The position numbers were made by a program, and so were the translations under genes. A DNA stretch of 45,568 nucleotides from Dehalococcoidia bacterium (lineage in GTDB: Bacteria > Chloroflexota > Dehalococcoidia > Lucifugimonadales > Lucifugimonadaceae). The notes beneath the pieces were generated by a model. It saw nothing but the letters and a program-made list of their open reading frames with translations, was not told the DNA's origin and searched no databases. Positions 4,782-29,965 of the stretch are shown here, piece after piece. Each line of letters begins with the position of its first letter. Position 1 is the first letter of the stretch. The stretch is taken from assembly GCA_022451965.1 (NCBI GenBank), contig JAKUNJ010000007.1, forward strand, positions 1 through 45,568. The letters run 5' to 3'.

Positions 4782-6743
4782 TTGATAGAGATACTAACAT
4801 TATTAATATTATTGATACCATTTAGTGTTTTTCTATTTCAATCTTTTTTTGTTGTTTTCTTTGGTCCAGATAAAAAAGAGATCTCAGGATTTATAAATAC
4901 GCTTTTTATTGGCCTTTGCTTTATTTTTTCACTTGTAATTATTTTTAATGTTGAAAATTTTTCTTCTACAATATCATTTAATTGGATAAGTATTAATGAT
5001 GTGGATCTAAATTTTTCATTTATGGTAGACCCTCTAACTGCGATTATGTTAGTAGTAGTTTCTGGTGTATCGTTTTTAGTACAGATTTACTCTATAGGCT
5101 ATATGCATGGAGATAAAAGCTTTTCACGTTATTTTTCCTATATGGCATTATTCACAGGCTCAATGCTTGGATTGGTTATGTCAAGAAATATTTTACAGCT
5201 GTTTATTTTCTGGGAATTAGTGGGTGTTTCATCTTACTTACTTGTAGGATTTTGGCATCAAAGAAATTCAGCAGCAGCAGCAGCTAAGAAAGCTTTTATA
5301 ATGACAAGATTGGGAGATTTTGGGTTCTTATTCTCTATAATTTATTTGTTTAATATAAACCCTGATCTATTAGAAATTCCAAATTTGTATATAGCTATAG
5401 TCTCAGATCAAATTTCTACAAATTCTGCAACAATTATGTCTTTAGGTTTCTTAATTGGAGCAATAGGTAAATCTGCTCAATTTCCTTTACATAATTGGTT
5501 GCCAGATGCAATGGAGGGACCAACTTCCGTTTCTGCTCTTATTCATTCAGCTACTATGGTTACCGCAGGAGTTTTTCTAATATCAAGACTATTTCCTTTA
5601 TTTCAACAGTCAGATATTATGACACTCGTTTCAATAATTGGAGCTATTACATCATTTATTGCTGCTACTATGGCACTAACTACTACTGATATTAAGAGAG
5701 TTTTAGCATATTCCACAATTTCTCAGCTCGGATATATGTTTATGGCCCTTGGATTGGGAGGATATACAGCCGCTATTTTCCATTTATTTACTCATGCTTT
5801 TTTTAAAGCAGGTTTATTCTTGAGTGCAGGGTCTGTTCATCATGCAGCAGGTACATTTAATATGAAATATATGGGAGGACTTAAGTCAAAAATGAAATTC
5901 ACCTATTATTCAATGACAATTTGTGCATTGTCTCTATCTGGTTTATTTCCTTTATCGGGATTTTGGTCTAAGGATGAAATTGTTCTTTCTGCTTATTTAA
6001 GCGGTGGATATATTGGCTACATTTGTATGATTACAGGCTTGATCGTTGCATTTCTAACAGCTTTTTACATGTTTAGAGCAATCTCTCTTACTTTTCTTGG
6101 AGAATTTAGAGGTGGTGGTGATAAAGAATCAGAGGACCTTAAAGCAAATAATATACCTATACCAGAAACAGTTGAACATGTTCACCTTGAAGAATCTCCA
6201 AAATATATGATATATCCTATAATTGTATTATCTTTTTTTGCAATAATTATTGGTTATTTAATAAATCCAGTATTTTCTAATCTTATATTTATTGATAAGC
6301 ATCTATTTGGGGTATTTTTAGAACAAAGCTTGTACCAATTTGATTATCATGGTGCTCATAAATTTAATTTTTCTATAGCCTTAGTCTCCACTTTTATATC
6401 AATAACTGGTATTTTATTTGGTATTAACATTTATAGAAAAAAAATAGAAATTGAAAAAAGTTCTATGATAGTCAGCATTAATAATTTCTTGGATAAAAAA
6501 TATTATATGGATGTTCTTTATGAAAAAATATTTATAAAAAATGTTTTTTATGAAATAATCTGCTCTGGTTCTGAGTGGATAGATAAAAATATATTTGATG
6601 GTATAAATATTGGATTATCAAAGCTTGCTGGTCGATTGAGCTTTAACTCTCTTAAGCTTCAAGATGGTCAAATACATTCTTATAGTCTTGTAATGGTTCT
6701 CACCGGTGTTATTGCTGTATTTATTTTAGTGATTTTAGGATGA
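4782..6743 (+). CDS. nuoL: NADH-quinone oxidoreductase subunit L
   Basis: A 653-residue Mrp-antiporter-type proton-pumping subunit (NuoL/ND5) with the long lateral helix at its C-terminal end. It starts with TTG at 4782, preceded by AGCAGGGA (4769-4775) at good spacing. Family landmarks are FWELVGVSSYLLVGFWHQR around residue 145, the channel lysine helix starting SAAAAAKKAFIMTR, GKSAQFPLHNWLPDAMEGPTSVSALIHSATMV around residue 230, and THAFFKAGLFL around residue 345. The C-terminal about 100 residues are more polar and end in one membrane helix. The length is within the normal 610-660 range. nuoM follows 6 nt later. Confidence 0.96.
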   Translation: MIEILTLLILLIPFSVFLFQSFFVVFFGPDKKEISGFINTLFIGLCFIFSLVIIFNVENFSSTISFNWISINDVDLNFSFMVDPLTAIMLVVVSGVSFLVQIYSIGYMHGDKSFSRYFSYMALFTGSMLGLVMSRNILQLFIFWELVGVSSYLLVGFWHQRNSAAAAAKKAFIMTRLGDFGFLFSIIYLFNINPDLLEIPNLYIAIVSDQISTNSATIMSLGFLIGAIGKSAQFPLHNWLPDAMEGPTSVSALIHSATMVTAGVFLISRLFPLFQQSDIMTLVSIIGAITSFIAATMALTTTDIKRVLAYSTISQLGYMFMALGLGGYTAAIFHLFTHAFFKAGLFLSAGSVHHAAGTFNMKYMGGLKSKMKFTYYSMTICALSLSGLFPLSGFWSKDEIVLSAYLSGGYIGYICMITGLIVAFLTAFYMFRAISLTFLGEFRGGGDKESEDLKANNIPIPETVEHVHLEESPKYMIYPIIVLSFFAIIIGYLINPVFSNLIFIDKHLFGVFLEQSLYQFDYHGAHKFNFSIALVSTFISITGILFGINIYRKKIEIEKSSMIVSINNFLDKKYYMDVLYEKIFIKNVFYEIICSGSEWIDKNIFDGINIGLSKLAGRLSFNSLKLQDGQIHSYSLVMVLTGVIAVFILVILG

Positions 6744-8285: not shown

Positions 8286-9712
8286 TGCAATTTGAAGAAC
8301 TAACATATTTGCTATCTCCCATAGTTTTGATACTAACAGCTTTATTTGTATTGATAATTGATTTTTTTGTTAAAAGAAAAGTTATATTAATGCTTTACGC
8401 TCTGTTTGGAATGTTTATATCAGCTTCTATTCTAATAATTCAATTTTTTAATTTTGAAACAAGTAAATCTATTTTCTTTGATACTCTAGTTTTTGATAAA
8501 TTATATATTTTTATGGCTCTTATTATAATTTTGTTATCTTTCGTTATACTAACAGCGTTTTACGACTACATAATTAATCAAGTAACTTTTAGGTCTGAAT
8601 TTATTTCATTATTACTATTATCTTTAGTAGGTTCTTTGTTTGTAATAATGTCAATTGATTTTATTACTTTGTATTTATCTCTTGAATTAGCCTCACTTCC
8701 AATAATTTCATTAGTTGCTTTTGGTAGAGGAAAATTTAGTTTAGAGGCTGCGTTTAAGTATTTGATCTTAGCTTCATTATCGACTGGAATATTTCTAATT
8801 GGGGTTGCATATCTTTATGGAGTTACTGGGTCAATAGATATCCAAAACATGAATATTTCTTCTCTAAATCCAGCAATAATTTTGGGTCTTGTTTTCTTAT
8901 TTATGGGTATAGCATTTAAGTTGTCAATTGCACCTTGGCATATGTGGACCCCTGATACATATCAAGGATCGCCAATGCCCATAGTTACTTATCTATCAAC
9001 AGTATCAAAAGTAGCTGGTTTTGTTTTGATTATCAGAATATTTATTGAGATATTATCTATAAATTTCGATTCAAATAACTTCATAATATTCTTGTCAATA
9101 GTTTCATTTTTGTCAATGACAGTGGGAAATTTTGGAGCTATTTTGCAGAGTGATCTTAAAAGATTATTTGCTTATTCAACGATTGCTCATGCTGGATATA
9201 TGTTAGTAGGTATAATTGCATTAATTTCAACTTCTTCTGCCGGTTCAACTACTCTTTTTTATGTTATTGGGTATGCATTAACCAACTTAACTGTATTTTT
9301 TTGTTTGCAATATGTTATAAATGTTACTCATAGTTCTTCAATAAATTCACTTAGGGGATTATTTAGTGTTTATCCCTTAGTCTCAATATTATTAACTATT
9401 TCTATTCTAAGTCTTTTGGGTATACCTGCTACTGTTGGATTTATGGGTAAGGTATTAGTTTTTAGTTCAGCTGTAGATAATGGATTAGCTTGGTTAGCTG
9501 TAGTTGGTGTTATAAACTCTTTTATTTCTGCATATTATTATTTAGCTATGTTGAGAAACATTTATATTTCTACTGAAAAATTCGAACAAAAGTCTAATAG
9601 CAACAATAACTATATTTTAGTAGCATCATTATCATCATCGTTAGTTTTGATATTGGGGGTTTTCCCTGATTTGTTATTATCTATATTAGATAATGTTGTT
9701 TCATCCATCTAA
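8285..9712 (+). CDS. nuoN: NADH-quinone oxidoreductase subunit N
   Basis: A 475-residue NuoN/ND2 membrane subunit, the third antiporter-like pump. Signatures are the YLSLELASLPIISLVAFGR helix near residue 130, EAAFKYLILASLSTGIFL, FKLSIAPWHMWTPDTYQGSP near residue 215, and QSDLKRLFAYSTIAHAGYML near residue 285. It ends the contiguous nuo genes: the next gene, nadK, starts 12 nt downstream with its own AGAGGT ribosome-binding site. No nuoE, nuoF or nuoG lies between it and the sdh genes, so the local complex I gene set is B, C, D, H-N (A presumably just outside). Confidence 0.96.
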   Translation: MQFEELTYLLSPIVLILTALFVLIIDFFVKRKVILMLYALFGMFISASILIIQFFNFETSKSIFFDTLVFDKLYIFMALIIILLSFVILTAFYDYIINQVTFRSEFISLLLLSLVGSLFVIMSIDFITLYLSLELASLPIISLVAFGRGKFSLEAAFKYLILASLSTGIFLIGVAYLYGVTGSIDIQNMNISSLNPAIILGLVFLFMGIAFKLSIAPWHMWTPDTYQGSPMPIVTYLSTVSKVAGFVLIIRIFIEILSINFDSNNFIIFLSIVSFLSMTVGNFGAILQSDLKRLFAYSTIAHAGYMLVGIIALISTSSAGSTTLFYVIGYALTNLTVFFCLQYVINVTHSSSINSLRGLFSVYPLVSILLTISILSLLGIPATVGFMGKVLVFSSAVDNGLAWLAVVGVINSFISAYYYLAMLRNIYISTEKFEQKSNSNNNYILVASLSSSLVLILGVFPDLLLSILDNVVSSI

Positions 9713-9724
9713 AAGAGGTAATTA

Positions 9725-10561
9725 GTGAAATATAAAAGTATTTGTTCAGTAATAAATCCCGAATCAAGTCAAGCTGTGATTCTAAGTAAAGAGATTGAAT
9801 CAAAATTTTCAGATTTGTCATGGCAAAAAGTTCAGGATTTTAATTTTGAAAATATTACAAAAATAGACTTAGTAATTGCTATAGGTGGAGACGGGACAAT
9901 ATTACGTGCTGTTTCATTAGCAGTAAAATTTGATGTACCTGTATTAGGCATAAATATGGGTACTGTTGGTTTTATGACTGATATTGAAGGTGATAAAGCT
10001 ATTGGAGAAATATCTGATTACTTGAGTGGTGTCAGAATAGAAGAAAGATCTATGCTTGAAATTGAATTTGTTAATTCAAATAAAAAATACTCCTACACAG
10101 CTTTGAATGACATAGTTATTGCTAGAGGTTCTTCAATTTCAATGATAGAAACTATTACAGAAATTGATAATATTCATCTTGCAACCTATAGAGGAGATGG
10201 ATTAGTAATTTCCACTGCAACAGGATCTACAGGTTATGCTTTATCAATTGGTGGGCCTGTGCTAGATCCCAAATCAAATGACTATTTCATAAAGCCTATA
10301 GCAACTCATATGAGTCAGTTTGGTGGTGCAGTAGTTAATTCTGAATCAATTTGTAAAATAACTGTTTCAACTAGAAATGATGCTCAAATAAGTATTGATG
10401 GTTTCATAGAGCACAAAGTAGAAAATAATGACTATTTCACGATCAAGATATCTGACACTAAAGCAAAATTTTTAAGAAAAAATCCTTCAAGTTACTATTG
10501 GGGTTCAATAACTGAAAAACTTGGAATAAGAAAAGGCAACTATATTTCAAAGAATACATAA
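9725..10561 (+). CDS. nadK: NAD kinase
   Basis: A 278-residue NAD kinase (ATP/polyphosphate + NAD to NADP), cytosolic. Diagnostic motifs are AIGGDGTILRAV with the GGDGT loop at residues 54-58, NMGTVGFMTDIE near residue 78, NDIVIARG, and the NAD-binding GDGLVISTATGSTGYALSIGGP stretch near residues 158-180. The start is GTG at 9725 with AGAGGT about 6 nt upstream. It sits between nuoN and a Nudix hydrolase with 12 nt and 1 nt gaps, so it is probably transcribed with complexes I and II. The placement suggests a co-regulated supply of NAD(P) cofactors alongside the respiratory chain (inference). Confidence 0.96.
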   Translation: MKYKSICSVINPESSQAVILSKEIESKFSDLSWQKVQDFNFENITKIDLVIAIGGDGTILRAVSLAVKFDVPVLGINMGTVGFMTDIEGDKAIGEISDYLSGVRIEERSMLEIEFVNSNKKYSYTALNDIVIARGSSISMIETITEIDNIHLATYRGDGLVISTATGSTGYALSIGGPVLDPKSNDYFIKPIATHMSQFGGAVVNSESICKITVSTRNDAQISIDGFIEHKVENNDYFTIKISDTKAKFLRKNPSSYYWGSITEKLGIRKGNYISKNT

Positions 10562-10562
10562 C

Positions 10563-11069
10563 ATGGAATCTAAATTAGTTTATAATGCGGACTCTCTAAA
10601 AATAAGAAGAGATACTTACGAGATGTCTAATAAATCAATCATAAACAAAGATTTTGTTGATCATCCTGGATCTGTGTTGATAATAGGTATTAGGGAGAAA
10701 AAAATTCTTTTTGTAAAGCAATGGAGGCAACCTGTAAAAGAGTTCACAATAGAACTTCCATGTGGAACTCTTGAAACAGATGAGAGTCCACTAATGGGTG
10801 CTGACAGAGAATTCAGAGAAGAAACTGGTTTTGCAGCTAAGAAATATATATCTCTAGGTAAATTTTATGCAGCCCCTGGTTACAGTAGCGAAATGACGGA
10901 ATATTTTTTAGCACAAAAGATTTACGAATCCTCGCTTAGTCCAGATGAAGATGAAGAGATTTATTTAGAAGAATATACTCTTGAAGAAGCTATGAATTTA
11001 ATTAAAAATAATAAAATTATAGATCAAGGCACAATATCGGCTCTAAATATCTATAAATCAATAATATAA
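10563..11069 (+). CDS. Nudix hydrolase, ADP-ribose pyrophosphatase-like
   Basis: A 168-residue Nudix hydrolase. The Nudix box G-x5-E-x7-REFREETGF is complete at residues 68-90, so the catalytic glutamates that bind Mg2+ are present. The preceding strand KILFVKQWRQPVKEFTIELPCGTLE and the layout after the box resemble ADP-ribose pyrophosphatases of the NudF/YqkG type, which split ADP-ribose to AMP and ribose-5-phosphate. Substrate choice cannot be read with certainty. It begins 1 nt after nadK and ends 21 nt before sdhA. Pairing with nadK suggests a role in turnover of NAD breakdown products. Confidence 0.85.
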   Translation: MESKLVYNADSLKIRRDTYEMSNKSIINKDFVDHPGSVLIIGIREKKILFVKQWRQPVKEFTIELPCGTLETDESPLMGADREFREETGFAAKKYISLGKFYAAPGYSSEMTEYFLAQKIYESSLSPDEDEEIYLEEYTLEEAMNLIKNNKIIDQGTISALNIYKSII

Positions 11070-11090
11070 TTTTATTAAGGAGAGTTTTAT

Positions 11091-12773
11091 ATGTATGATC
11101 ATGATGTATTAATAGTTGGTGCAGGATTAGCAGGTCTACGCTGTGCAGTTGAAGCACAAAGGTTAGGTCTTGATGTTGCAGTAATAACAAAAGTTCACCC
11201 TGTAAGAAGTCATTCTAATGCTGCCCAGGGAGGTATTAATGCACCTCTTACAGATCGAGGAGATGATTGGAAAGGTCATGCTTTGGATACAATTAAAGGT
11301 AGTGACTATTTGGCCGATCAAGATGCTGTTGAAATTATGAGTCAAGAAGCAGGTGATGCTGTGCTTGAACTAGAAAGAATGGGTGTTATTTTTTCTAGAG
11401 GAGATGATGGTAAATTAGGAACAAGAAGGTTTGGAGGTCAAAAAGTTGCAAGAACATTTTTTGTTGGAGCTATTACTGGATCTGCGTTACTTCACGTTTT
11501 ATACGAGCAATCACTGAAGATGGGATTAACTGTATATGAAGAATGGTTTGTAACTTCTCTAATTAAGCATGAAGGTGCAGTTAAGGGTGTAGTCGCTCTT
11601 GACTTAAAAACTGGTGAAATTGAAGCTATAACCGCTAAATCAGTGGTAATTGCAGCAGGTGGTGCTGGTAGAGTATTTGAACCATCAACTAATGCACTGA
11701 TTTGTACAGGTGATGGTTTATCTTTGGCTTGGAATAATGGTGCTGGTCTTATGGATATGGAAATGATTCAATATCATCCTACAACCCTAGCCAGAACAGG
11801 AATCCTACTATCAGAAGCAGCGAGGGGAGAAGGAGCTTATCTTCTTAATGCTGAAGGAGATAGATTTATGGAAAAATATGCTCCTGATTACATGGAGTTA
11901 GCTTCCAGAGATGTTGTATCAAGAGCTGAACAAACAGAAATTAATGAAGGTAGAGGTATTGATGGTAATGTTCTTCTTGATCTAAGACATCTAGGCAAAG
12001 AATTTATTGAGACTAGGTTAGGTTATCTTCAAGAGGTTTCAGTTGAATTTTTAGGTATAGATATGTCTGAAAAACCTGTCCCTATAAGGCCTGGTATGCA
12101 CTACATAATGGGTGGTATTAAAACAGATGTCGATGGAGAAACTGGCGTCCCTGGATTATATGCAGCAGGTGAATGTGCAAATGTAAGTGTTCATGGAGCT
12201 AATAGGTTAGGTGCCAATTCATTACTAGACACAGTTGTTTTCGGTAGAAGGTCTGCTGTTAAGGCATCTGATTATGTTAGAACAGTTTCAAATGAAGATA
12301 TTCCCACTAAGGAATTTGTTGATAAGGACCTTAAAAGAATAAAAAGTATAATTGAGTCAGATGGTAAGCTCAGAGTTTCAGAAGTAAGAAATGAAATGGC
12401 TGAAGCAATGACCAAAGGAATTGGAGTATTCAGAGACCAAAAGTCTATGGAGTACGCTAAATCTGTTGTCGATAAAACAAAAATAAAGTATAGAGACTCT
12501 ATCAAAATTGATAACAAAGGTAAGGTCTATAATACTGATTTACTTTTTGCTCTTGAGCTTGGAAATATGATTGATTGTGCTGAATCTATTGTCCATGGTG
12601 CACTGACTAGAAAAGAGAGTAGAGGAGCTCATTTTAGAACTGACTTGACTGAAAGAAATGATAAAGATTGGTTGAAACATACATTGGTGCTAAAAGATCT
12701 GGAAGGTGAGATTACTGTGAAAACTCCGGATGTATCTATCACACAATGGCAACCAGTAGAAAGAGTTTACTAG
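11091..12773 (+). CDS. sdhA: Succinate dehydrogenase/fumarate reductase flavoprotein subunit
   Basis: A 560-residue flavoprotein that oxidises succinate to fumarate. It opens with an FAD-binding Rossmann motif (VLIVGAGLAGLRCAVEA) and has RSHSNAAQGGINA, where H41 is the usual site of covalent 8-alpha-histidyl FAD. Near residue 365 it has VHGANRLGANSLLDTVVFGR, with the active-site Arg. The His and Arg of the dicarboxylate site also appear in MIQYHPTTL and LLSEAARGEGA. A strong ribosome-binding site (AAGGAGAG) precedes ATG 11091. SdhA is followed directly by sdhB and an HdrB-like gene rather than membrane anchors, so it belongs to an E-type (SdhABE) complex. Confidence 0.95.
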   Translation: MYDHDVLIVGAGLAGLRCAVEAQRLGLDVAVITKVHPVRSHSNAAQGGINAPLTDRGDDWKGHALDTIKGSDYLADQDAVEIMSQEAGDAVLELERMGVIFSRGDDGKLGTRRFGGQKVARTFFVGAITGSALLHVLYEQSLKMGLTVYEEWFVTSLIKHEGAVKGVVALDLKTGEIEAITAKSVVIAAGGAGRVFEPSTNALICTGDGLSLAWNNGAGLMDMEMIQYHPTTLARTGILLSEAARGEGAYLLNAEGDRFMEKYAPDYMELASRDVVSRAEQTEINEGRGIDGNVLLDLRHLGKEFIETRLGYLQEVSVEFLGIDMSEKPVPIRPGMHYIMGGIKTDVDGETGVPGLYAAGECANVSVHGANRLGANSLLDTVVFGRRSAVKASDYVRTVSNEDIPTKEFVDKDLKRIKSIIESDGKLRVSEVRNEMAEAMTKGIGVFRDQKSMEYAKSVVDKTKIKYRDSIKIDNKGKVYNTDLLFALELGNMIDCAESIVHGALTRKESRGAHFRTDLTERNDKDWLKHTLVLKDLEGEITVKTPDVSITQWQPVERVY

Positions 12774-12781
12774 GAGTTCTT

Positions 12782-13738
12782 ATGAAAGTAAATTTAAGTG
12801 TTAAAAGATATGATCCTGAAAAAACAAAAGATAATAATTGGCTTGAAGATTATCAAATGGATATCCACCAATCGTCTACTGTATTAGATGCCTTGATTCA
12901 TGTCAGAGAAGAAATTGATGGAACATTAGGCTTAAGATGTGCTTGTAGAGCCTCTATTTGTGGTTCATGTGGAATGAAAGTAAACGGTCAAGCAAAATTA
13001 GTTTGTAAAACTAGAGTAGAAGAATTATCTCCCAATGGAGAAACTCTATTAATTGAGCCAATGGGAAACCAACCAGTTATTAAAGATTTGATAGTAGATA
13101 TAAGTTCTTTTTTTGCAAAAATGGAGCAAGTTAGTCCATTTCTTCAACCCGATAAGCTTCCTGAAAAAGGAGAATTTATTGCATCAAATGATTCTATGGA
13201 AAAACTCTTGACTGAAATGAATTGTATTATGTGCGGATTATGTGTTTCTGATTGTACTGTATTGGAAGTAGATAACTCATTTATAGGTCCCGCTGCATTA
13301 GCTAAAGCGTCAAGATTTGTATATGATCCAAGAGACGATAAAACCTCTGAAAGACTTAACTATTTAAACGATGAGAGCGGAGGTATATGGGATTGTACAA
13401 GATGTATGCAGTGTGTTGAGGTTTGTCCAAAGGGAGTAAATCCAATGGATAGAATAATGGATCTAAGGGAATCTGCAATAGAAATTGGTGCTAAAAAAAC
13501 TCATGGTTATCATCATACAAATTCTTTTGAAAAATCAGTTACAGCTCATGGTAGATTAGATGAAAGTAGATTAGCATTAGAATCAGCTGGAATATTCAAT
13601 ATATTTAGATTGCTAGATTTAGTTCCAGTAGGCCTTAGAGCACTTATCAGAGGTAAATTGCCACCATTATTTCCCCATAAGGCAAAAGATAATAAAAAGA
13701 TTAAGGAATTGGCCAAAGCTATTAAGGAGAAAGAGTAA
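12782..13738 (+). CDS. sdhB: Succinate dehydrogenase iron-sulfur subunit (E-type)
   Basis: A 318-residue iron-sulfur subunit. ATG 12782 is chosen because AGGAG overlaps the sdhA TAG stop 6 nt upstream; an upstream in-frame ATG lies inside sdhA. The 2Fe-2S ligands are C55, C60, C63 and C75. A ferredoxin pattern follows: C148, C151, C154, C158 and then C205, C208, C211, C215 with CP. The classical SdhB third site is C-x5-C (3Fe-4S). Here C-x2-C-x2-C-x3-CP supplies a fourth cysteine (C208), as described for archaeal E-type enzymes with a second 4Fe-4S cluster. A tail of about 100 residues after the clusters is longer than in typical SdhB and may dock SdhE. Its stop overlaps the next ATG by one base. 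Confidence 0.92.
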   Translation: MKVNLSVKRYDPEKTKDNNWLEDYQMDIHQSSTVLDALIHVREEIDGTLGLRCACRASICGSCGMKVNGQAKLVCKTRVEELSPNGETLLIEPMGNQPVIKDLIVDISSFFAKMEQVSPFLQPDKLPEKGEFIASNDSMEKLLTEMNCIMCGLCVSDCTVLEVDNSFIGPAALAKASRFVYDPRDDKTSERLNYLNDESGGIWDCTRCMQCVEVCPKGVNPMDRIMDLRESAIEIGAKKTHGYHHTNSFEKSVTAHGRLDESRLALESAGIFNIFRLLDLVPVGLRALIRGKLPPLFPHKAKDNKKIKELAKAIKEKE

Positions 13739-14613
13739 TGAAATTTGCATTTTATCCAGGATGTGTAGCTAGAGGAGGTACTCCTGAGTTGCTTTCTTCA
13801 TCTATGGCTGTGTTAGATAAACTTGGTATCGAATTAGAAGAACTAACAAAAGCGGGTTGTACAGGTGCTGGAGTTCTTCAAGAAAAGAACCCTTTATTAG
13901 GTGATTCAATTAATGTCAGAACCCTTGCGATGGCTGAGCAGTTAGGATTAAATATTATGACTTTATGCTCAACTTGTCAGGGTGTACTTAGTCAAGCTAA
14001 TCTTAAGGTGAAAAAAGATAAGGAATATTTAGACGAAATAAATGATTTGATAAAAGATGAAGGTTATGAATATAAAGGAACAACAGAGGTAAAACATCTT
14101 TTATGGATATTGGTAGAAGATTATGGTTTAGATAAACTTGAATCTCATTTTACAACAAAACTATCTGATCTAAAATTTGCTCCATTTTATGGATGTTACA
14201 TGGTTAGACCATCTGAAGCACTAGGATTTAATGAAAGACCAGAAAGAAAAATGTATCTTGAACAGGTTATTGAATCTTGTGGGGCTGAGGCTATTGATTT
14301 TCCAGGCAAATTTTCATGTTGCGGATTTCCAATACTCTTTATCAATCAAAAGAACTCACTAAAAATGGTTTCCAATAATACAGGTTCAGCAAAAGATCTT
14401 GGTGCAGATGCTATGGTGACTCCATGTCCACTTTGTCACTTAAACTTGGATGGATATCAAGGTAAAGCCAGAAATAACAATAGAGGTGATAAAGCTGATT
14501 TACCAATAATTCACATGCCTCAAATGATAGCTCTTGCTATGGGAATTGAGAAAAAAGATATAGGCCTTGCAAGACATATAGTTTCAGCTAAAGAAGTTCT
14601 AAATAAAGTTTAA
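13738..14613 (+). CDS. sdhE: HdrB/SdhE-like CCG-domain subunit of succinate dehydrogenase
   Basis: A 291-residue protein with two cysteine-rich CCG domains (PF02754 type), as in heterodisulfide reductase subunit B and SdhE/SdhC of Sulfolobus-type succinate dehydrogenases. The second domain is canonical: C153, C194-C195-G, C230-x2-C233. The first has C9, C41, C77-x2-C80, but the second Cys of the CCG pair is Thr (T42). It has no transmembrane helix. In E-type enzymes this subunit replaces the haem-bearing membrane anchors and passes electrons to quinone at the membrane surface. It overlaps sdhB by one base (TAATG) and closes the 14.6 kb co-directional respiratory block. It is not the unrelated flavin-assembly factor also called SdhE. 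Confidence 0.88.
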   Translation: MKFAFYPGCVARGGTPELLSSSMAVLDKLGIELEELTKAGCTGAGVLQEKNPLLGDSINVRTLAMAEQLGLNIMTLCSTCQGVLSQANLKVKKDKEYLDEINDLIKDEGYEYKGTTEVKHLLWILVEDYGLDKLESHFTTKLSDLKFAPFYGCYMVRPSEALGFNERPERKMYLEQVIESCGAEAIDFPGKFSCCGFPILFINQKNSLKMVSNNTGSAKDLGADAMVTPCPLCHLNLDGYQGKARNNNRGDKADLPIIHMPQMIALAMGIEKKDIGLARHIVSAKEVLNKV

Positions 14614-22338: not shown

Positions 22339-22367
22339 TTGATATTAAGTACTACTCTGCATATACT
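22339..22367 (+). promoter_or_regulatory. Sigma70-type promoter for the SDR-GMC operon
   Basis: TTGATA at 22339-22344 and TATACT at 22362-22367 are separated by exactly 17 nt. This places transcription start roughly 25-30 nt before the ATG at 22400, which has GAGG at 22390-22393 as ribosome-binding site. It is the best-formed promoter I can see in the window and lies in the 168-nt gap between glyS (-) and the SDR gene (+). Confidence 0.6.
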
Positions 22368-22399: not shown

Positions 22400-23227
22400 A
22401 TGAGTTCTCAAGATCTATCTGGAAAAATTGCAATGATTACAGGTGCAGGAAGTGGCATTGGTGCTGGGATTGCAAATGTGTTATTTGAAAGAGGTGCAAC
22501 ACTCGCTCTTTGTGATTTATTTGGAGATTCTGTTTCAAAAACAGCTGAATCTTTATCTGATGACATTCTTCATGATTCTGTTGATGTAACAATCCCCGAA
22601 GATATTGAAAGTTTTAGAGATAAAATTTTAGATAAGCATGGAACTATAGATATTTTAGTGTCTAATGCAGGAGTTATAGGAGGAAAAGGATTTTCTAAAA
22701 GGAAAAATTATTCTAAAGATGATTGGGATAGTACTTACGATGTTAATGTAATCGGTATGGTCAATAGTGCAGATGCAGTTGTAGATCATATGAAAATTCA
22801 AGAATATGGAAAAATTATTAATATTGCTTCTCATGGAGGTAGAAAACCCAGAGGATTAGGAGATATTCATAGAGGTAACGTTCAAACTCCATATTTAGTA
22901 TCAAAAGCTGCTGTTATTCAATATACGCATTTATTAGCCATTGAATTAGGTTCATATAATATAAATGTAAATGCAGTTTGCCCAGGTGTGATTTGGACAC
23001 CAATTTGGGAAGCAATAGCAATTAACCATATAGAGCAAAATCCAAACTTAAAAAATAAAACCCCTAAAGAAGTTTTTGATGAGTTTGCAGTTAAAGCTAG
23101 AACTCCGTTAGGTAGAGAGCAAACTCCTGAAGATATAGGTAAAACTGTTGCATTTTTTGCTTCTGAAGAATCTTCTGAGATAACAGGGCAAGCTCTGAAT
23201 GTAAATGGTGGAGCTACATTAAACTAA
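22400..23227 (+). CDS. Short-chain dehydrogenase/reductase (SDR)
   Basis: A 275-residue classical SDR, an NAD(P)-dependent oxidoreductase for an alcohol or keto group. The cofactor motif TGAGSGIG (T-G-x3-G-x-G) is near residue 15, an Asp at the end of strand 2 (LCDLFG) favours NAD, NAG occurs in VSNAGVIGG near residue 92, and the catalytic Y-x3-K is YLVSKAA near residue 170. The C-terminus has the typical GREQTPEDIGKTVAFFASEESSEITGQALNVNGG. Substrate cannot be read. It heads a + strand operon with a GMC oxidoreductase and two D-glutamate-cyclase-like genes, spaced by 13 nt or less, and has its own promoter. Confidence 0.9.
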   Translation: MSSQDLSGKIAMITGAGSGIGAGIANVLFERGATLALCDLFGDSVSKTAESLSDDILHDSVDVTIPEDIESFRDKILDKHGTIDILVSNAGVIGGKGFSKRKNYSKDDWDSTYDVNVIGMVNSADAVVDHMKIQEYGKIINIASHGGRKPRGLGDIHRGNVQTPYLVSKAAVIQYTHLLAIELGSYNINVNAVCPGVIWTPIWEAIAINHIEQNPNLKNKTPKEVFDEFAVKARTPLGREQTPEDIGKTVAFFASEESSEITGQALNVNGGATLN

Positions 23228-23240
23228 AAGAGGAATTTAT

Positions 23241-24815
23241 TTGAATAAATATTATGACTATATAATTATTGGAGCAGGTTCATCTGGTGCAGTTTTAGCT
23301 TCAAGATTATCTGAAAATCCTAATAATAAAATCTTACTTATTGAAGCAGGGAATACATTTGAGAGAATTGATCAAATTCCAGGAGTTTTGCTCAACGGTA
23401 TGTCAACTGGAGCTGATTGGACAGGTAATTTAGCTATAGGTACTGAATTTGATTGGCAATATAAAGCTGTTTCTAATCCAGAATTTAAAGATATGGGAGT
23501 ACCAAGAGGAAGAGTAGCTGGAGGAACTAGTTCTATAAATGGTCAAGTTTTCTTGAGAGCAATACCTGAAGATTTTGAGAACTGGAAGAATGGAGGTTTA
23601 GAAGATTGGTCTTATGAGCAATGCCTAAAATACTTTATCAAACAAGAAAATGATCTAGATTTTCAAAATGAATATCATGGAAATAATGGGCCAATTCCAG
23701 TCAAAAGGCATAGTTTAGACTCATTATTAGTCGATCAAATGAGCTTCTATAATACTGTAAAGGAAATGGGATACAAAGCAACTGAAGATCATAATTTACC
23801 ATACTCTGAAGGAGTTGGCCCAATGCCATTAAATAATTCAAATGGCATTAGGTGGAGTACAGGTATTTGTTATTTACTACCAGCTCTTGAAAGAGAAAAT
23901 TTAGATGTTTTATCTAATAAAATATGTAAAAAAATATTGATTGAAAATGGTAAACAAATTGGATTACAACTTTATGATGATGAGGTTTTTGAAGGTAATG
24001 AAATAATTATTTCAACTGGTGCTGTTGAAAGTCCAAAGCTATTAATGCTTTCAGGTATAGGTAATAAATCAGAATTTGAAAATTATAATATAAAGCATTT
24101 ACATCAGCTGAAGGGAGTTGGACAGAATTTGAGAGATCACCCAGCTGTTGAATTAAGGTGGAATGCTGATGATTTATTAAATAATGATCTTAGTGATGTT
24201 GGTGCTCAGAAAGTGGGATTAAGATATACATCTTCAAAATCTAAAGATAGGCTTGATATGGTGTCAGTTATGAGATTCCAACCTAAAGAAATGAATCCAG
24301 ACAGTTTACATTTTGAAAAAACTGATTTTGGTAATACCAGAGTAGCAATTACTACAGGCATTTTTTTAGCTAAAAGTTCAGGAAATTTATCCTTAAATAA
24401 GCAAGATCACAACAAATATCCAAAAATAAATTATAACTACTTAAGTAATGAATATGATATGGAAAGGCTTATTGAAGGTGTTAAGCTCAATTTTGAAATT
24501 GCAAGAAATAGTAACTTTGATTCTTTTAGAAAAGAATTAATTGCTCCATTACCTGAGGCATTTGAAAACGATAAGTTATTAAGAAAATGGATTTTATCTA
24601 AAGTTCATACTATGCATCATATTTCAGGTACTTGTAAAATGGGAAGTATTAACGATGAATTTTCTGTTGTTGATAAATATGCAAAGGTAATCGGAATTGA
24701 AGGATTGAGAATAGCTGATTGTTCAATAATGCCAGATTGTGTAAGAGCAAATACTAATGCCACAGCTATTATGATTGGTGAAAAAATTTCTGATCATATA
24801 AAAAATGGAGATTAA
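23241..24815 (+). CDS. GMC-family FAD-dependent alcohol oxidoreductase
   Basis: A 524-residue glucose-methanol-choline oxidoreductase with an N-terminal FAD-binding motif (YIIIGAGSSGAVLASRLSE), GMC signature 1 (GRVAGGTSSINGQVFLRA near residue 91), GMC signature 2 (ISTGAVESPKLLMLSGIG near residue 255), and the C-terminal catalytic region HHISGTCKMGS with its active-site His near residue 460, then DCSIMPDCVRANTNATAIMIGE. It most resembles choline-dehydrogenase-like members that oxidise a primary alcohol and pass electrons to a carrier. The substrate is unknown. The start is TTG 23241 with AGAGGA upstream. It has no signal peptide, so it is probably cytoplasmic, and it ends 1 nt before the next gene. 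Confidence 0.9.
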   Translation: MNKYYDYIIIGAGSSGAVLASRLSENPNNKILLIEAGNTFERIDQIPGVLLNGMSTGADWTGNLAIGTEFDWQYKAVSNPEFKDMGVPRGRVAGGTSSINGQVFLRAIPEDFENWKNGGLEDWSYEQCLKYFIKQENDLDFQNEYHGNNGPIPVKRHSLDSLLVDQMSFYNTVKEMGYKATEDHNLPYSEGVGPMPLNNSNGIRWSTGICYLLPALERENLDVLSNKICKKILIENGKQIGLQLYDDEVFEGNEIIISTGAVESPKLLMLSGIGNKSEFENYNIKHLHQLKGVGQNLRDHPAVELRWNADDLLNNDLSDVGAQKVGLRYTSSKSKDRLDMVSVMRFQPKEMNPDSLHFEKTDFGNTRVAITTGIFLAKSSGNLSLNKQDHNKYPKINYNYLSNEYDMERLIEGVKLNFEIARNSNFDSFRKELIAPLPEAFENDKLLRKWILSKVHTMHHISGTCKMGSINDEFSVVDKYAKVIGIEGLRIADCSIMPDCVRANTNATAIMIGEKISDHIKNGD

Positions 24816-24816
24816 T

Positions 24817-25596
24817 ATGAAAAAATTATCTGCAATTCAAGTTAGAAATAAAGCCAGAAATGGAGAGAACTTTACTACTTCAGGTTTAGCTGAAGGTTTT
24901 GTACAAACAAATGTAGTAATAATTCCAAAAGAAGATGCTTTTGATTTTATGCTTTATTGTCAAAGAAATCCTAAACCCTGTCCGATAATAGAAGTTTTGG
25001 ATCCAGGAAATTATGAATCTTCATTTGCACTTCAATCAGATATTAGAAAAGATATCCCAGAGTATAAATTATTTAATCATGGAAAGTATTCAAAAACATT
25101 AACTGATATAACAAAAATTTGGAGAGATGACTTCGTTACTTTTTTGCTTGGTTGTTCTTTTACATTTGAAAATGAGTTGATAAAGAATGGGCTTGAGCTT
25201 CCATATTTTAAACAAGGAAAAAATGTACCTATGTTTATTACTTCTATAGATACAGAAAAATCTGGAAAATTTTCAGGTAAAATGGTTGTTACTCAAAGAT
25301 GGATTCCAAGGGATAAACTTGTTAGATCTATACAGATAACTAGCAGATTCCCTAATCAACATGGAACACCAATTCAGATAGGTAACTCTTCAGAAATAGG
25401 TATAAATGATCCGACTAAACCAGATTTTGGAGATCCTTGGATACCTCAAAATGATGAATTGATTCCAGTTTATTGGGCTTGCGGAGTAACTCCTCAAATA
25501 GCAATAAAAGAAGCAAAATTAGAAATAATGATAACTCACTCTCCTGGCAAAATGTTCTTGACAGACCTCAAAGATGAAGATATGGCTGTAATCTAA
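24817..25596 (+). CDS. DUF1445 family, D-glutamate cyclase N-domain/YcsI-like putative hydro-lyase
   Basis: A 259-residue protein matching the DUF1445/PF07286 family in length and in motifs I recall: VRNKARNGENFTTSGLAEGFVQTNVVIIP at the N-terminus, PCPIIEVLDPG near residue 50, FLLGCSFTFENELIKNGL near residue 108, the RWIPRDKLVRSIQITSRFPNQHGTPIQIG core near residues 160-190, and a late IPVYWACGVTPQIAI segment. GGAG 6 nt upstream selects ATG 24817; an earlier ATG at 24805 lies inside the GMC gene. The family includes B. subtilis YcsI, found by 5-oxoprolinase genes, and one half of vertebrate D-glutamate cyclase DGLUCY (D-Glu to 5-oxo-D-proline). The other half follows directly (TAATG). Confidence 0.85.
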   Translation: MKKLSAIQVRNKARNGENFTTSGLAEGFVQTNVVIIPKEDAFDFMLYCQRNPKPCPIIEVLDPGNYESSFALQSDIRKDIPEYKLFNHGKYSKTLTDITKIWRDDFVTFLLGCSFTFENELIKNGLELPYFKQGKNVPMFITSIDTEKSGKFSGKMVVTQRWIPRDKLVRSIQITSRFPNQHGTPIQIGNSSEIGINDPTKPDFGDPWIPQNDELIPVYWACGVTPQIAIKEAKLEIMITHSPGKMFLTDLKDEDMAVI

Positions 25597-26435
25597 TGAG
25601 CTATTCTGAAATTGAAAAAATAATTCTTCATGATGATACGAGAGGAATGTCAGATTTATATCAAAAAATTGGAAAAGGATTTATTGAAAGATCAACTAAA
25701 TTAATTCTAGAAAAAAAGGGAGTTATTATTATAACTACAGGTTTCTATATACTTTCAGCAAATGCACCTGAAACTGATGGTCCCCCTGGGGCTGTTGCTC
25801 TTGGGAAATCATTAGAGAAATTAGGCTATGATGTATTTTATGTAACAGATAAATATTCTTATAATATTCTTTCAGGATTGTTGGGGGAGGGGAATATAAT
25901 TGAATTTCCTATAACATCTCATATTGAATCCAGTACTTTTGCAAATAAATTAATTCGAGACTATGATCCTAAGTCATTGATTTCAATTGAAAGAGCAGGA
26001 TTATCCAATGATGGTAAGTATAGGAATTTTAAAGGAGAAGATTTCTCTAAATATAATGCCAAAATAGATTATTTATTTGAGCAACATCCTAGAACTGTTG
26101 GAATCCTAGACGGTGGAAATGAGATAGGAAGTGGAAATTATATTGAGGAAATAATAAAACTAGGAAATATAATTGACTATCCTTCAATTATTACTGCTAC
26201 AGAAAGTATAATTTCTAGCACTTCAAATTGGGGAGCATTTGGTTTGATTGCAGGTCTATCAATTCATGAGAATATAAATTTATTACCAAGCGTGGATGAA
26301 GGTAAAAGGCTTATAGAGAAAACATATAATTTGGGAGCCGTAGAGGGCTTAACAGGAGAATCTAAGCCTTATGTAGATGGAAGATCTCTTGAAGAAGATA
26401 TGATATGTTTGAAAAAGCTTAATTCTCTGTTTTAG
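25596..26435 (+). CDS. DUF4392 family, D-glutamate cyclase C-domain-like
   Basis: A 279-residue protein resembling the DUF4392/PF14336 family, the C-terminal half of vertebrate D-glutamate cyclase. Features that fit are an N-terminal helical part, VIIITTGFYILSANAPETDGPPGAVALGKSLEKLGYDV near residues 45-80, SIERAGLSNDGKYRNFKGEDFS near residue 130 (an acidic and Gly-rich active-site-like stretch), and TVGILDGGNEIGSGNY near residue 170. The gene overlaps the DUF1445 gene by one base, so the two are made together and may form one two-subunit enzyme acting on D-glutamate or a similar D-acid. Its last 17 nt overlap the MFS gene on the other strand. Family assignment is from memory of motifs. Confidence 0.82.
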   Translation: MSYSEIEKIILHDDTRGMSDLYQKIGKGFIERSTKLILEKKGVIIITTGFYILSANAPETDGPPGAVALGKSLEKLGYDVFYVTDKYSYNILSGLLGEGNIIEFPITSHIESSTFANKLIRDYDPKSLISIERAGLSNDGKYRNFKGEDFSKYNAKIDYLFEQHPRTVGILDGGNEIGSGNYIEEIIKLGNIIDYPSIITATESIISSTSNWGAFGLIAGLSIHENINLLPSVDEGKRLIEKTYNLGAVEGLTGESKPYVDGRSLEEDMICLKKLNSLF

Positions 26436-27645
26436 AATTATTTTTTTCTAAAGTTTCCTTAACAAAGAATCTCAAAAAAATGATTCCTGTTATAGCAATA
26501 ATGCCACTAGAAAAACTAGCTGTTGCTAATGAGTAAGAATTTGCTATTATTCCCATAACTGTTGGACCTGCAGCACCTCCACCATCTGAAATAAGTCTCC
26601 ATATACCTAAAAATCCTCCTCTATTATTGGGTGGTGATAAGTCTGATCCGATTGTTAATACTAATCCACTTGAAATACCATTACCAATTCCTGACATTAT
26701 TGCAGATAATATAAGTGTAGAGTATGAGGTAAGAAACATTAATGGGTTGTCAACTGTACCTATTAGTACTAAAGAAAAGCCTAGAATTATAAATGCTGGT
26801 ATTCCAGTATATCTCCTTCCAAATTTGTCCATTATAAAACCTGCGATTGGGAACATCAAAGAGTCAACAGCAAAACTTAATGTTGTTATGTATCCAATTT
26901 CATCTTTACGTAAACCTATATTATCCCCCCATAAGGGTATCACTATTTCTCTACTTGCTCTCAAAAATTGTAAAGCCACAGCAGCCATTCCTGCGGTGAG
27001 ATAAGCGTTTCTATTATCAATGAAAGTATTTCTTAAATCTATCAGATAGCCTTCATTTGACTTTTTATCATTAAATTCTAAATTTCTTGATGTAGTTGTG
27101 ATTAGTATTAGAGTTAATCCTGCAATAAATGCCTGAAAGAAAAAGGGTGCTCTTATAGAGACAAATTGTGCTAATATTCCTCCGATCAATGGTCCAATTA
27201 TTGTAGCTATTCTGCCTAATCCTCCAAATAAAGATAAAGCTTTACCTCTATTTTCATTAGGAATAACTGAAGCTATATAAGCATGTCTTGAAATTGACCA
27301 AAGGGCGAAACTTGCGCCTGCCAATAATCTAGAAAAAAGGAGTAAAGAAAAATTTCCACTTAATCCTGCAAAAATAGCACTTATTCCAAATAATACTACT
27401 CCAGCAACCATTGTTCTATTAAGACCAAATCTTCCTACTAATAAACCTGCTGGAACATCAAATCCCATTGTCCCAAAATGTCTAGCAGCAATAAGAAATC
27501 CTATCAATAAATCTCCAGATTGAAAAGTATCTCTTGCAAATATAGGAAGAACAGGAATAAGTAATCCCTGGCCCATAGAAAGTAAAAAACTTGGAGCATA
27601 AACACTCCAAATTATAGATTTAATTGAAAAATTATCTTTCTTCAA
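26419..27645 (-). CDS. MFS transporter
   Basis: A 408-residue major facilitator with twelve hydrophobic segments. The first half carries the FDVPAGLLVGRFGLNRTMVAG loop, the family's conserved D-x3-G-x-x-x-D/G-R-F-G-type motif between helices 2 and 3. The second-half copy is AGFIMDKFGRRYTGIPA. This resembles drug:H+ antiporter or organic-acid MFS families; no substrate can be assigned. The likely start is TTG 27645, 4 nt after the VOC gene stop, with no clear ribosome-binding site, so translation may depend on coupling. It is the last gene of the minus-strand six-gene operon, and its end overlaps the DUF4392 gene by 17 nt. Confidence 0.88.
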   Translation of the reverse strand: MKKDNFSIKSIIWSVYAPSFLLSMGQGLLIPVLPIFARDTFQSGDLLIGFLIAARHFGTMGFDVPAGLLVGRFGLNRTMVAGVVLFGISAIFAGLSGNFSLLLFSRLLAGASFALWSISRHAYIASVIPNENRGKALSLFGGLGRIATIIGPLIGGILAQFVSIRAPFFFQAFIAGLTLILITTTSRNLEFNDKKSNEGYLIDLRNTFIDNRNAYLTAGMAAVALQFLRASREIVIPLWGDNIGLRKDEIGYITTLSFAVDSLMFPIAGFIMDKFGRRYTGIPAFIILGFSLVLIGTVDNPLMFLTSYSTLILSAIMSGIGNGISSGLVLTIGSDLSPPNNRGGFLGIWRLISDGGGAAGPTVMGIIANSYSLATASFSSGIIAITGIIFLRFFVKETLEKNNSKTEN

Positions 27646-27649
27646 AATA

Positions 27650-28087
27650 CTAAGGGTTTTTAGTATAACCCCAAGCGTCTACGATTCTATCAGAATGCTT
27701 GATATTATTATGAGTTGCAAATTCTATTGTATTACCATCTATATCTTGGATATATATTGCCCTTTGACCATCATGTCTTATTTGGGGACCATTTGTAATT
27801 TGATATTCAGATTTTTTTAGTATTTCTACGGTTTCATCAAAATTTTCTACTTCAAATGCAACATGGAAAGGTACTAATTTGTTTCCGGGACCATCAGGTG
27901 GTTCAATAAGATGTACCATTGTTCCATCAGATATCTTTGACCAAATGACATGTTTTTCATCAACCATCGATGGGATGATAGTCAATCCAAGAAAGTCTCT
28001 ATATAAACTAAAAGATTTCTTTCTATTATTAATTGGGATTGCAACATGATTAATTTTTTTTATTTTTATCTTTCGCGAATCTTTCAT
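27650..28087 (-). CDS. VOC (glyoxalase/dioxygenase fold) protein
   Basis: A 145-residue vicinal-oxygen-chelate protein. It has the paired beta-alpha-beta-beta-beta layout: KINHVAIPINNRKKSFSLYRDFLGL at the start (metal-binding His in NHVAIP), MVHLIEPP, PFHVAFEVENFDETVEIL with a second His, and a C-terminal AIYIQDIDGNTIEFAT with the metal-binding Glu. These are the expected metal ligands. ATG 28087 is preferred, with GAGGGA 5 nt upstream. The VOC fold covers glyoxalase I, ring-cleavage dioxygenases, epimerases and resistance proteins, so the activity is open. It lies between RidA-like and MFS genes with gaps under 20 nt. Confidence 0.85.
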   Translation of the reverse strand: MKDSRKIKIKKINHVAIPINNRKKSFSLYRDFLGLTIIPSMVDEKHVIWSKISDGTMVHLIEPPDGPGNKLVPFHVAFEVENFDETVEILKKSEYQITNGPQIRHDGQRAIYIQDIDGNTIEFATHNNIKHSDRIVDAWGYTKNP

Positions 28088-28104
28088 TTTATCCCTCAAA
28101 AAAA

Positions 28105-28563
28105 TTAACTTACTTCAACTATTATCTCAATTTCTACAGCCATATTATTTGGTAGAGAACCCATTCCAACAGCAGACCTAGCATGTCTTCCTTTATCTCC
28201 AAAAACTTCTACAAAAAAATCTGAGCAACCATTAATTACTTTAGGGTGATCCGTAAAATCAGAAGTTGAATTAACCATCCCAAAAACTTTAACTATTTTT
28301 TTTACTTTATCTAAAGAACCTAAGTAAGATTTCATAGCAGAGACTAAATTAATAGCTGTATTTCTTGCAAGTTCATAAGCTTCTTCTGCTGTAATATCTG
28401 ATCCTACTTTCCCTGAGATGAAATCACCGGATTCATTTCTTGGCCCTTGCCCAGATAAATAAATTAGATTACCAGTTTGTTGAACAGGAATATAATTAGC
28501 TACAGGACTAGGTGGTGTTTTTAATTCTATTCCTAATTCTTTAAGTTTTTCTTCTATTGTCAT
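28105..28563 (-). CDS. RidA/YjgF-family protein
   Basis: A 152-residue member of the Rid (YjgF/YER057c/UK114) family with the longer form typical of non-archetypal Rid subfamilies. Features are GNLIYLSGQGPRNESGDFISGKVG near residue 31, an ARNTAINLVSAMKSYLGSLDKVKKIVKV helix-strand, and RHARSAVGMGSLPNNMAVEIE, which keeps the Arg (HARSAVG) that binds the carboxylate of imine or enamine intermediates in RidA. Archetypal RidA hydrolyses 2-aminoacrylate; this subgroup is less certain. AAGGAG lies 7 nt before ATG 28563. It is located downstream of fumC in the operon. Confidence 0.88.
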   Translation of the reverse strand: MTIEEKLKELGIELKTPPSPVANYIPVQQTGNLIYLSGQGPRNESGDFISGKVGSDITAEEAYELARNTAINLVSAMKSYLGSLDKVKKIVKVFGMVNSTSDFTDHPKVINGCSDFFVEVFGDKGRHARSAVGMGSLPNNMAVEIEIIVEVS

Positions 28564-28579
28564 AATTATTCTCCTTATA

Positions 28580-29965
28580 TTATTTTGGTTCAGTCATACT
28601 AAGTGGTTCTAAAATTTCATCAATCTCTTCGGAGTTTAATTCTGTTTCCTCTAGTGTGACTTCCTTTATAGTTTTTCCTGTTTCAGATGCTATATGAGCA
28701 ATATTTGCAGCTTTATCATATCCTAATCTAGGAGCTAATGCAGTACAAATTGCTAACCCTTGGTTTACCATATTAGGACCTTTTTCAGTTGCTACAAGTC
28801 CTTCTATGCATTGTTTAGAGAAATTTTTACTTCCGTTAGAAAGGATTTCAATAGATTCAAGAAGATTGTGCGCAGCGATTGGCATCATAACATTTAGTTC
28901 AAAATTCCCACTTTGACCAGCTATACTTACAGTTTGATCATTTCCCATTACTTGAGCGCATATCATTGTTACAGATTCTGCTATAACAGGATTAACTTTT
29001 CCTGGCATAATTGAAGATCCAGGTTGAACCTCAGGTAGATTAATTTCACCAATTCCAGCTCTAGGACCTGATCCTAACCATCTGATATCATTTGAGATTT
29101 TCATTAAGCTTACAGCAAAGCTTCTCACGCAACCAGAAGCATACACAATGCCGTCTATTGTAGATTGAGATTGAAAATGATTTTCTGTCTCACTGAATTT
29201 TATATTTGTTTTTTTACTTATTTTGGCTATTACTGAGCCACAAAACTCAGGATTCATTCCTATACCTGTTCCTACAGCTGTTCCTCCTAAAGCTAGTACA
29301 GACAATTCACTTAATGCGGACTCGACTTTCTTAATTGAATTATTTAGTTGACCATAATAACCCTTAAATTCCTGGCCCAATCTAATTGGAGTTGCATCTT
29401 GTAAATGAGTTCTACCTGTTTTAACTATATCCCAAAATTCTTTGGATTTTTTTTCTAGAGATTTTCTTAATATTTCCATCGAAGGTATTAGATTATCTTT
29501 TATAGAAATTGCAGCAGCAATATGAATAGCAGTAGGAATAACATCATTAGATGATTGCCCTTTATTTACATGATCATTTGGATGAACAGGTTCTCTAGAG
29601 CCAATTTTTCCTCCAAGTTTATTAATAGCTAGATTAGAAATGACTTCATTTACATTCATATTTGTGGATGTTCCTGAGCCAGTTTGGAAAATGTCTACGA
29701 TAAAGCTTTCATCATGTAAACCATCAATTACTTCTTGGGCAGATTTAATAATTGAATCTGCGATATTTTGGTCTAATAGATTAAGTTCTAAATTAGTTTC
29801 AGCAGCTGATTGTTTAATCAAGCCTAAGGCTTTAATAAAAGACCTTCCAAATTTCAAATCTGAAATAGGAAAATTTAACTGTGCTCTCCTAGTATTAGCT
29901 CCATATAAAGCATTAGATGGAACTTCTAGCTCTCCCATGGAATCTTTTTCTAATCTCATATTCAT
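28580..29965 (-). CDS. fumC: Fumarate hydratase, class II
   Basis: A 461-residue class II fumarase (fumarate + water to malate). Motifs are QSSNDVIPTAIHIAA near residue 135, GRTHLQDATPIRLGQEF with the catalytic His near residue 187, GGTAVGTGIG near residue 228, and the superfamily signature GSSIMPGKVNP with the catalytic Ser near residue 316. These fit fumarase better than aspartase or argininosuccinate lyase. GGAG lies 7 nt before ATG 29965. It is the only fumarase in the window. It sits inside an operon of transporters and small accessory enzymes rather than with sdh or mdh, so it may also serve the pathway that operon encodes. Confidence 0.93.
   Translation of the reverse strand: MNMRLEKDSMGELEVPSNALYGANTRRAQLNFPISDLKFGRSFIKALGLIKQSAAETNLELNLLDQNIADSIIKSAQEVIDGLHDESFIVDIFQTGSGTSTNMNVNEVISNLAINKLGGKIGSREPVHPNDHVNKGQSSNDVIPTAIHIAAAISIKDNLIPSMEILRKSLEKKSKEFWDIVKTGRTHLQDATPIRLGQEFKGYYGQLNNSIKKVESALSELSVLALGGTAVGTGIGMNPEFCGSVIAKISKKTNIKFSETENHFQSQSTIDGIVYASGCVRSFAVSLMKISNDIRWLGSGPRAGIGEINLPEVQPGSSIMPGKVNPVIAESVTMICAQVMGNDQTVSIAGQSGNFELNVMMPIAAHNLLESIEILSNGSKNFSKQCIEGLVATEKGPNMVNQGLAICTALAPRLGYDKAANIAHIASETGKTIKEVTLEETELNSEEIDEILEPLSMTEPK

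Follow-up and report, generated by a model that had tools for sequence, protein, structure and literature searches.

In a 45,568-nucleotide stretch of DNA from a Dehalococcoidia bacterium (hereafter, we refer to this whole stretch as the window), we identify two adjacent genes, each of which corresponds to one half of DGLUCY, the D-glutamate cyclase of animals. With somewhat better than even confidence, and on the strength of gene contexts across bacteria, we read the pair as an unfused bacterial D-glutamate cyclase module, whose two proteins would act one after the other in turning D-glutamate into usable glutamate via 5-oxoproline. In the proposed route, the DUF4392 protein, carrying six acidic residues as a di-Mn(Mg) site, would cyclize D-glutamate to 5-oxo-D-proline; the DUF1445 protein would act at the 5-oxoproline side; and an ATP-dependent PxpABC, encoded on another contig, would open the ring to give glutamate. 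The substrate would be external D-glutamate, e.g., from wall debris in dissolved organic matter. We infer these reactions, their order, the source of the substrate, and the sequential action of the proteins from gene identities, conserved residues, linkage, and which partner genes are present and which are absent. Counting against the route, we found in the literature no bacterial enzyme of either family with demonstrated D-glutamate cyclase activity.

The animal fusion protein is a D-glutamate cyclase that converts D-glutamate to 5-oxo-D-proline (PMC5339696). Vertebrate DGLUCY (GLUCM) has the same two domains, DUF1445 then DUF4392, on one polypeptide, whereas the window carries them as two reading frames split by a stop codon, in a bacterium without peptidoglycan. 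Sohn et al. (2016) described the animal protein as a fusion of a TON_0340 homolog and an Atu3911 homolog (PMC5132392), and Table 1 of Rendina et al. (2024) gives, for GLUCM_HUMAN, 0 full-length and 6 split gut-microbial homologs (PMC11580864). Those split homologs are likewise two adjacent bacterial genes that jointly cover the human protein; in that table, however, they are counted only, with no gene context or pathway given. At NCBI, DUF4392 proteins already carry the name “glutamate cyclase domain-containing protein.” The animal fusion and the split bacterial homologs are thus already published (PMC5132392, PMC11580864). What may be new are the operon contexts that place the two halves at the two ends of the route, together with the presence of the pair in wall-less bacteria; a literature search of incomplete coverage returned no paper linking D-glutamate cyclase with PxpABC. 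The operon patterns further suggest how the steps are divided between the two domains of human DGLUCY, a question to which we met no answer in the literature surveyed.

The genome is of the SAR202 type of Chloroflexota (1.25 Mb, 97.8% complete), and its closest public relatives are SAR202/Dehalococcoidia (Chloroflexota) MAGs. The pair closes a tight, single-strand run of four genes on the plus strand. This run opens with an SDR oxidoreductase (22400..23227; PF13561/PF00106) and continues with a choline-dehydrogenase/MftG-like GMC oxidoreductase (23241..24815; PF00732/PF05199), whose NCBIfam matches all fall below equivalog cut-offs. The DUF1445 gene (PF07286; UPF0317 “putative hydro-lyase”) occupies 24817..25596 and the DUF4392 gene (PF14336; TON_0340-like) 25596..26435; by profiles and fold, they correspond to the N-terminal and C-terminal halves of DGLUCY, respectively, and both reading frames are intact. 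For the DUF1445 gene, 24817 is a better start than the alternatives because it has a GGAG 6 nt before it and follows the GMC stop codon, whose last base is 24815. The preliminary description had reported that the two genes overlap by one base, and they do: in the TAATG at 25594..25598 (plus strand), the DUF1445 stop codon TAA spans 25594-25596 and the DUF4392 ATG begins at 25596. A promoter-like TTGATA-17-TATACT precedes the SDR gene at 22339-22367. Such promoter-like sites are no more frequent than in shuffled sequence, so we infer co-transcription of SDR-GMC-DUF1445-DUF4392 from spacing only. The MFS gene said to follow the operon (26419-27645) lies on the minus strand, converging on the DUF4392 gene and overlapping its 3' end, which places it outside the predicted transcription unit. 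It belongs to a convergent minus-strand block (26419-29965) of MFS, VOC, RidA, and fumarase/aspartase-type lyase genes that is kept beside the pair in close SAR202 relatives.

Family membership is clear for both proteins. In the Pfam profile searches that the preliminary description had called for, each matched far above its cut-off: PF07286 with E 2.6e-54 (183 bits versus a cut-off of 25) and PF14336 with E 3.7e-59 (201 bits versus 27.9). For DUF1445, there is also a match above cut-off to NCBIfam NF003969, “putative hydro-lyase” (350 bits versus 324), and a profile search of the genome finds one copy of each family. AlphaFold models have a mean pLDDT of 87.5 for DUF1445 and 95.5 for DUF4392. 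The DUF1445 model matches its solved UPF0317 relatives, PSPTO_5379 (2pif, Z 33.3) and Atu3911 (3db9, Z 30.7), which share its family and fold; B. subtilis, whose UPF0317 protein is YcsI, has a PF07286 match as well. All 67 DUF1445 sequences compared share C117, C226, H186, and H245. The DUF4392 model has the fold of TON_0340 from Thermococcus onnurineus (PDB 4fc5, 5gl4; PMC5132392) and all six of its acidic metal ligands, at E59, D61, E132, D172, E176, and D261 (E59, D61, E115, D157, E161, and D246 in TON_0340); five of these are conserved in 89 of 89 aligned sequences and E176 in 88 of 89. TON_0340 differs in that it stands alone, in an archaeon, and was reported to be a weak Mn-dependent phosphatase (PMC5132392).

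Beyond UPF0317 itself, the DUF1445 model is most similar in fold to an NrpR-like nitrogen repressor (3nek, Z 10.5). NrpR is a 2-oxoglutarate sensor, and the likeness hints at a C5-dicarboxylate ligand for DUF1445. The order of its secondary-structure elements had also prompted the idea of an internal duplication, in two cysteine-bearing halves, which is unsupported (hhalign probability 0.1).

The two genes are linked well beyond this genome. Among 301 genomes of the phylum, 30 have both families, 4 have DUF4392 alone, 18 have DUF1445 alone, and 249 have neither (odds ratio 104); leaving out the dominant family f31 changes this to 12, 4, 18, and 249 (odds ratio 41), the odds ratios and p-values being ones that ignore kinship. 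The pairing exceeds chance. An adjacency count, which the preliminary description had also proposed, places the genes on the same strand within 4 kb in 21 of the 30 genomes with both, 17 of them from f31 and 4 from f1, f8, and f46; the order is DUF4392 to DUF1445 in f31 and f46, and DUF1445 to DUF4392 in f1 and f8. We also collected the best 80 named loci with DUF4392 alone as the query, a set that over-represents the kin of the window because it was picked by similarity to the query. DUF1445 lies directly upstream in 46 of the 57 Chloroflexota loci in this set and further upstream in 3, and the remaining 8 lack it (3 of these end at a contig edge); among the 23 non-Chloroflexota loci, only 5 have DUF1445 on the same strand. 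The earlier proposal that the genes correspond to the two domains fused in vertebrate DGLUCY is supported.

Each gene also occurs without the other, in contexts that are informative about its role. In Omnitrophota (L135, 9980-13718), DUF4392 stands without DUF1445 and is followed, with 4-base overlaps, by a MurL-like gene, whose match to NF041275 (E 4e-59) falls short of that model's narrow cut-off, and a MurD gene that clears the cut-off of TIGR01087; in Rokuibacteriota (L093, 10001-13645), MurL-like and MurD genes likewise come directly after a DUF4392 gene without DUF1445. MurL is an epimerase that produces D-glutamate on the peptidoglycan precursor. A survey of the L135 phylum for the DUF4392-MurL arrangement turned up no other DUF4392 genome among 14. 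At the other end of the route, DUF1445 genes that lack a DUF4392 partner are accompanied by PxpA, a metal transporter of the NRAMP type, and PxpBC-type genes on annotated plasmids of Bacillus badius, Lactiplantibacillus, Klebsiella, and Paracoccus, and B. subtilis ycsI shares an operon with PxpABC genes (PMC10448178). The simplest reading of these contexts is a division of labor in which DUF4392 would handle D-glutamate and DUF1445 would handle 5-oxoproline.

This division bears on the two-subunit enzyme that the preliminary description had proposed from the operon pairing, taken here in its obligate form: one D-glutamate cyclase complex in which neither protein is active alone. The pairing itself holds, and the fusion of the domains in vertebrates (PMC5339696, PMC5132392), the one-base overlap in both the window and its close relative L068, and the adjacency in 46 of 57 Chloroflexota loci among the best 80 all speak for such a complex. 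The obligate part of the claim is weakened by the coherent contexts of each gene alone, DUF4392 with MurL/MurD and DUF1445 with PxpA/PxpBC, from which sequential steps, and no obligate two-subunit enzyme, would follow. In addition, 22 of the 52 phylum genomes with either gene hold just one, so that the co-occurrence expected of an obligate complex was not seen; DUF4392 occurs alone in invertebrates (PMC5339696) and in archaea, which are reported to have no DUF1445 (PMC5132392), and DUF1445 alone in fungi (PMC5132392); and gene order varies among lineages. We therefore consider an obligate two-subunit enzyme unlikely.

In our favored reading, the partner that completes the route is 5-oxoprolinase. 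Prokaryotic PxpABC converts 5-oxo-L-proline to L-glutamate (PMC13274462), and its genes are recurrent neighbors of the pair. Dehalococcoidia loci L051, L111, and L118 have the order DUF1445-PxpA-PxpB-PxpC-DUF4392, and Clostridia loci L137, L145, and L146 have PxpB-PxpC-DUF1445-PxpA-DUF4392. Latescibacterota L147 has a Hydantoinase_B gene ahead of DUF1445-DUF4392, and a megaplasmid of Pseudoalteromonas donghaensis (L149, 5441-8676) carries a tight run of DUF1445-PxpA-DUF4392-aminotransferase, where the best NCBIfam match of the aminotransferase is D-amino-acid transaminase (251 bits, below the cut-off of 277). These loci fall in separate parts of the DUF4392 tree, the PxpABC-linked ones requiring at least two separate changes on well-supported branches, and three as drawn. 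PxpA or Hydantoinase_B is present in 30 of 30 phylum genomes with both genes versus 178 of 271 others; PxpA alone shows no correlation with DUF1445 or DUF4392 over the 301 phylum genomes. Among 25 sampled DUF4392 genomes from the named loci, 18 have PxpA, including that of the cultured Ca. Lucifugimonas marina, which carries the pair as well, and seven lack it. We further observe that a class III aminotransferase gene resembling glutamate-1-semialdehyde aminomutase precedes DUF1445-PxpABC-DUF4392 in L118 (5146-6465) and L051 (10460-11785), and that Rokuibacteriota L141 has a similar gene after DUF4392.

The genome under study has its own PxpABC-type operon, which lies away from the pair on contig C5 (L048: PxpA 9244-10011, PxpB 10008-10676, PxpC 10669-11706). 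The preliminary description had argued from the absence of a nearby 5-oxoprolinase to a distinct pathway, an argument left without support by this operon and by the relatives that join the pair to 5-oxoprolinase genes. PxpA and PxpB pass their NCBIfam models (322.6 bits versus 226 and 202.4 versus 145.6); PxpC is divergent, passing Pfam CT_A_B and falling below two NCBIfam cut-offs (179 versus 230 and 142 versus 500). The operon (L048, 9244-13771 in all) runs on along the same strand into genes for a protein resembling OAD_gamma, a biotin carrier, and an OAD_beta subunit of the Na+-transporting kind; in a related genome (L050), the same PxpABC is followed by similar genes. Judged by these matches, the operon is likely but not certain to function as a 5-oxoprolinase, the doubt coming from the NCBIfam scores of PxpC and from the biotin carrier and OAD_beta genes further along. 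Possibly, the PxpABC-OAD genes encode a carboxyltransferase/decarboxylase assembly instead of a plain 5-oxoprolinase.

Where D-glutamate would come from is constrained by what the genome lacks. SAR202 bacteria are described as being without peptidoglycan (PMC10444878, PMC11994032). In the 97.8% complete genome, we found no Mur ligase (PF01225) and no Asp/Glu racemase (PF01177), each of which was found in 10 of 14 control genomes; both are likewise absent from Ca. Lucifugimonas marina and the genomes of L068 and L118. Any D-glutamate substrate would thus be scavenged. Saw et al. (2020) proposed that chirally complex organic matter sustains SAR202 and remarked how little is known of the use of D-amino acids by marine microbes (PMC6946804); scavenged D-glutamate, as predicted here from gene content, would be consistent with their proposal (PMC6946804). 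The gene neighborhoods suggest that a wall-less ocean bacterium recycles scavenged D-glutamate via 5-oxoproline, and the retention of the pair in a 1.25 Mb genome and in Ca. Lucifugimonas marina offers a concrete gene set for D-glutamate use without peptidoglycan.

A more specific version of the route assigns a reaction to DUF1445. Running a cyclase together with a ring-opener that consumes ATP would amount to a futile cycle if no change, e.g., in stereochemistry, took place between the two, which raises the idea that DUF1445 is a cofactor-independent 5-oxoproline racemase. DUF4392 would then cyclize D-glutamate and PxpABC would open 5-oxo-L-proline, giving an ATP-driven inversion of D- to L-glutamate by which wall-less SAR202 would eat peptidoglycan-derived D-glutamate in the ocean. 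If true, this would explain how a cyclase and a ring-opener can share operons without a futile cycle, and the two invariant cysteines of DUF1445, C117 and C226, in a fold not known for racemases, are the residues to which it points. Against it, the reported product of DGLUCY is 5-oxo-D-proline (PMC5339696). Among the matches listed in the DUF1445 fold search there is neither a DAP-epimerase-type nor an Asp/Glu-racemase-type enzyme, an absence that is not proof. We regard a racemase as quite unlikely.

The oxidoreductases upstream of the pair suggest yet another reading, close to the one first proposed for this DNA, in which the SDR and GMC enzymes would oxidize an alcohol and the pair would handle the acid or lactam product. 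Consistent with this are the tight SDR-GMC-DUF1445-DUF4392 run in the window and in L068 (which has the identical gene order and one-base overlap, and groups with the window at 100/99 support within a SAR202 clade of the DUF4392 tree), an SDR-Ldh2-DUF4392 run without DUF1445 beside it in another Chloroflexota lineage (L062, 10369-13089, and L125), and the specialization of SAR202 on unusual organic matter (PMC6946804). However, among the relatives compared, GMC lies within the unit of the pair in the window and L068 only. In other close SAR202 relatives (L070-L084), the SDR gene stays in the vicinity of the pair but is typically 1.2 to 7 kb upstream, with other genes between (an amidase gene among them in Ca. 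Lucifugimonas marina, L073), and some SAR202 with the pair lack it; the partners that recur are the 5-oxoprolinase genes. With the GMC gene next to the pair in just these two closely related loci, we treat the SDR and GMC genes as local partners whose relevance is uncertain, and a separate lactam or acid pathway as improbable.

Least probable of all is that DUF4392 is a small-molecule phosphatase, as proposed for TON_0340, with DUF1445 linked to it via a phosphorylated intermediate: TON_0340 does hydrolyze AMP with Mn2+ (kcat/KM 1.9e2 per M per s; PMC5132392), and DHH-type phosphoesterases are the second-best folds for the DUF4392 model, but that activity is very low and its authors themselves name no physiological substrate (PMC5132392), the fused animal protein cyclizes D-glutamate (PMC5339696), and the neighboring MurL/MurD, PxpA, and D-amino-acid-transaminase-like genes point to glutamate.

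Finally, PF14336 includes a longer subfamily (~340 aa), found twice in G019 (L067, about 5692-6702 and 13406-14446) and once in Sinorhizobium (L150, 6974-8041). Its neighbors are RidA, enolase-superfamily, and ABC-transporter-like genes in G019, and threonine/serine dehydratase and RidA genes in Sinorhizobium; it seems to be a separate branch of the family.
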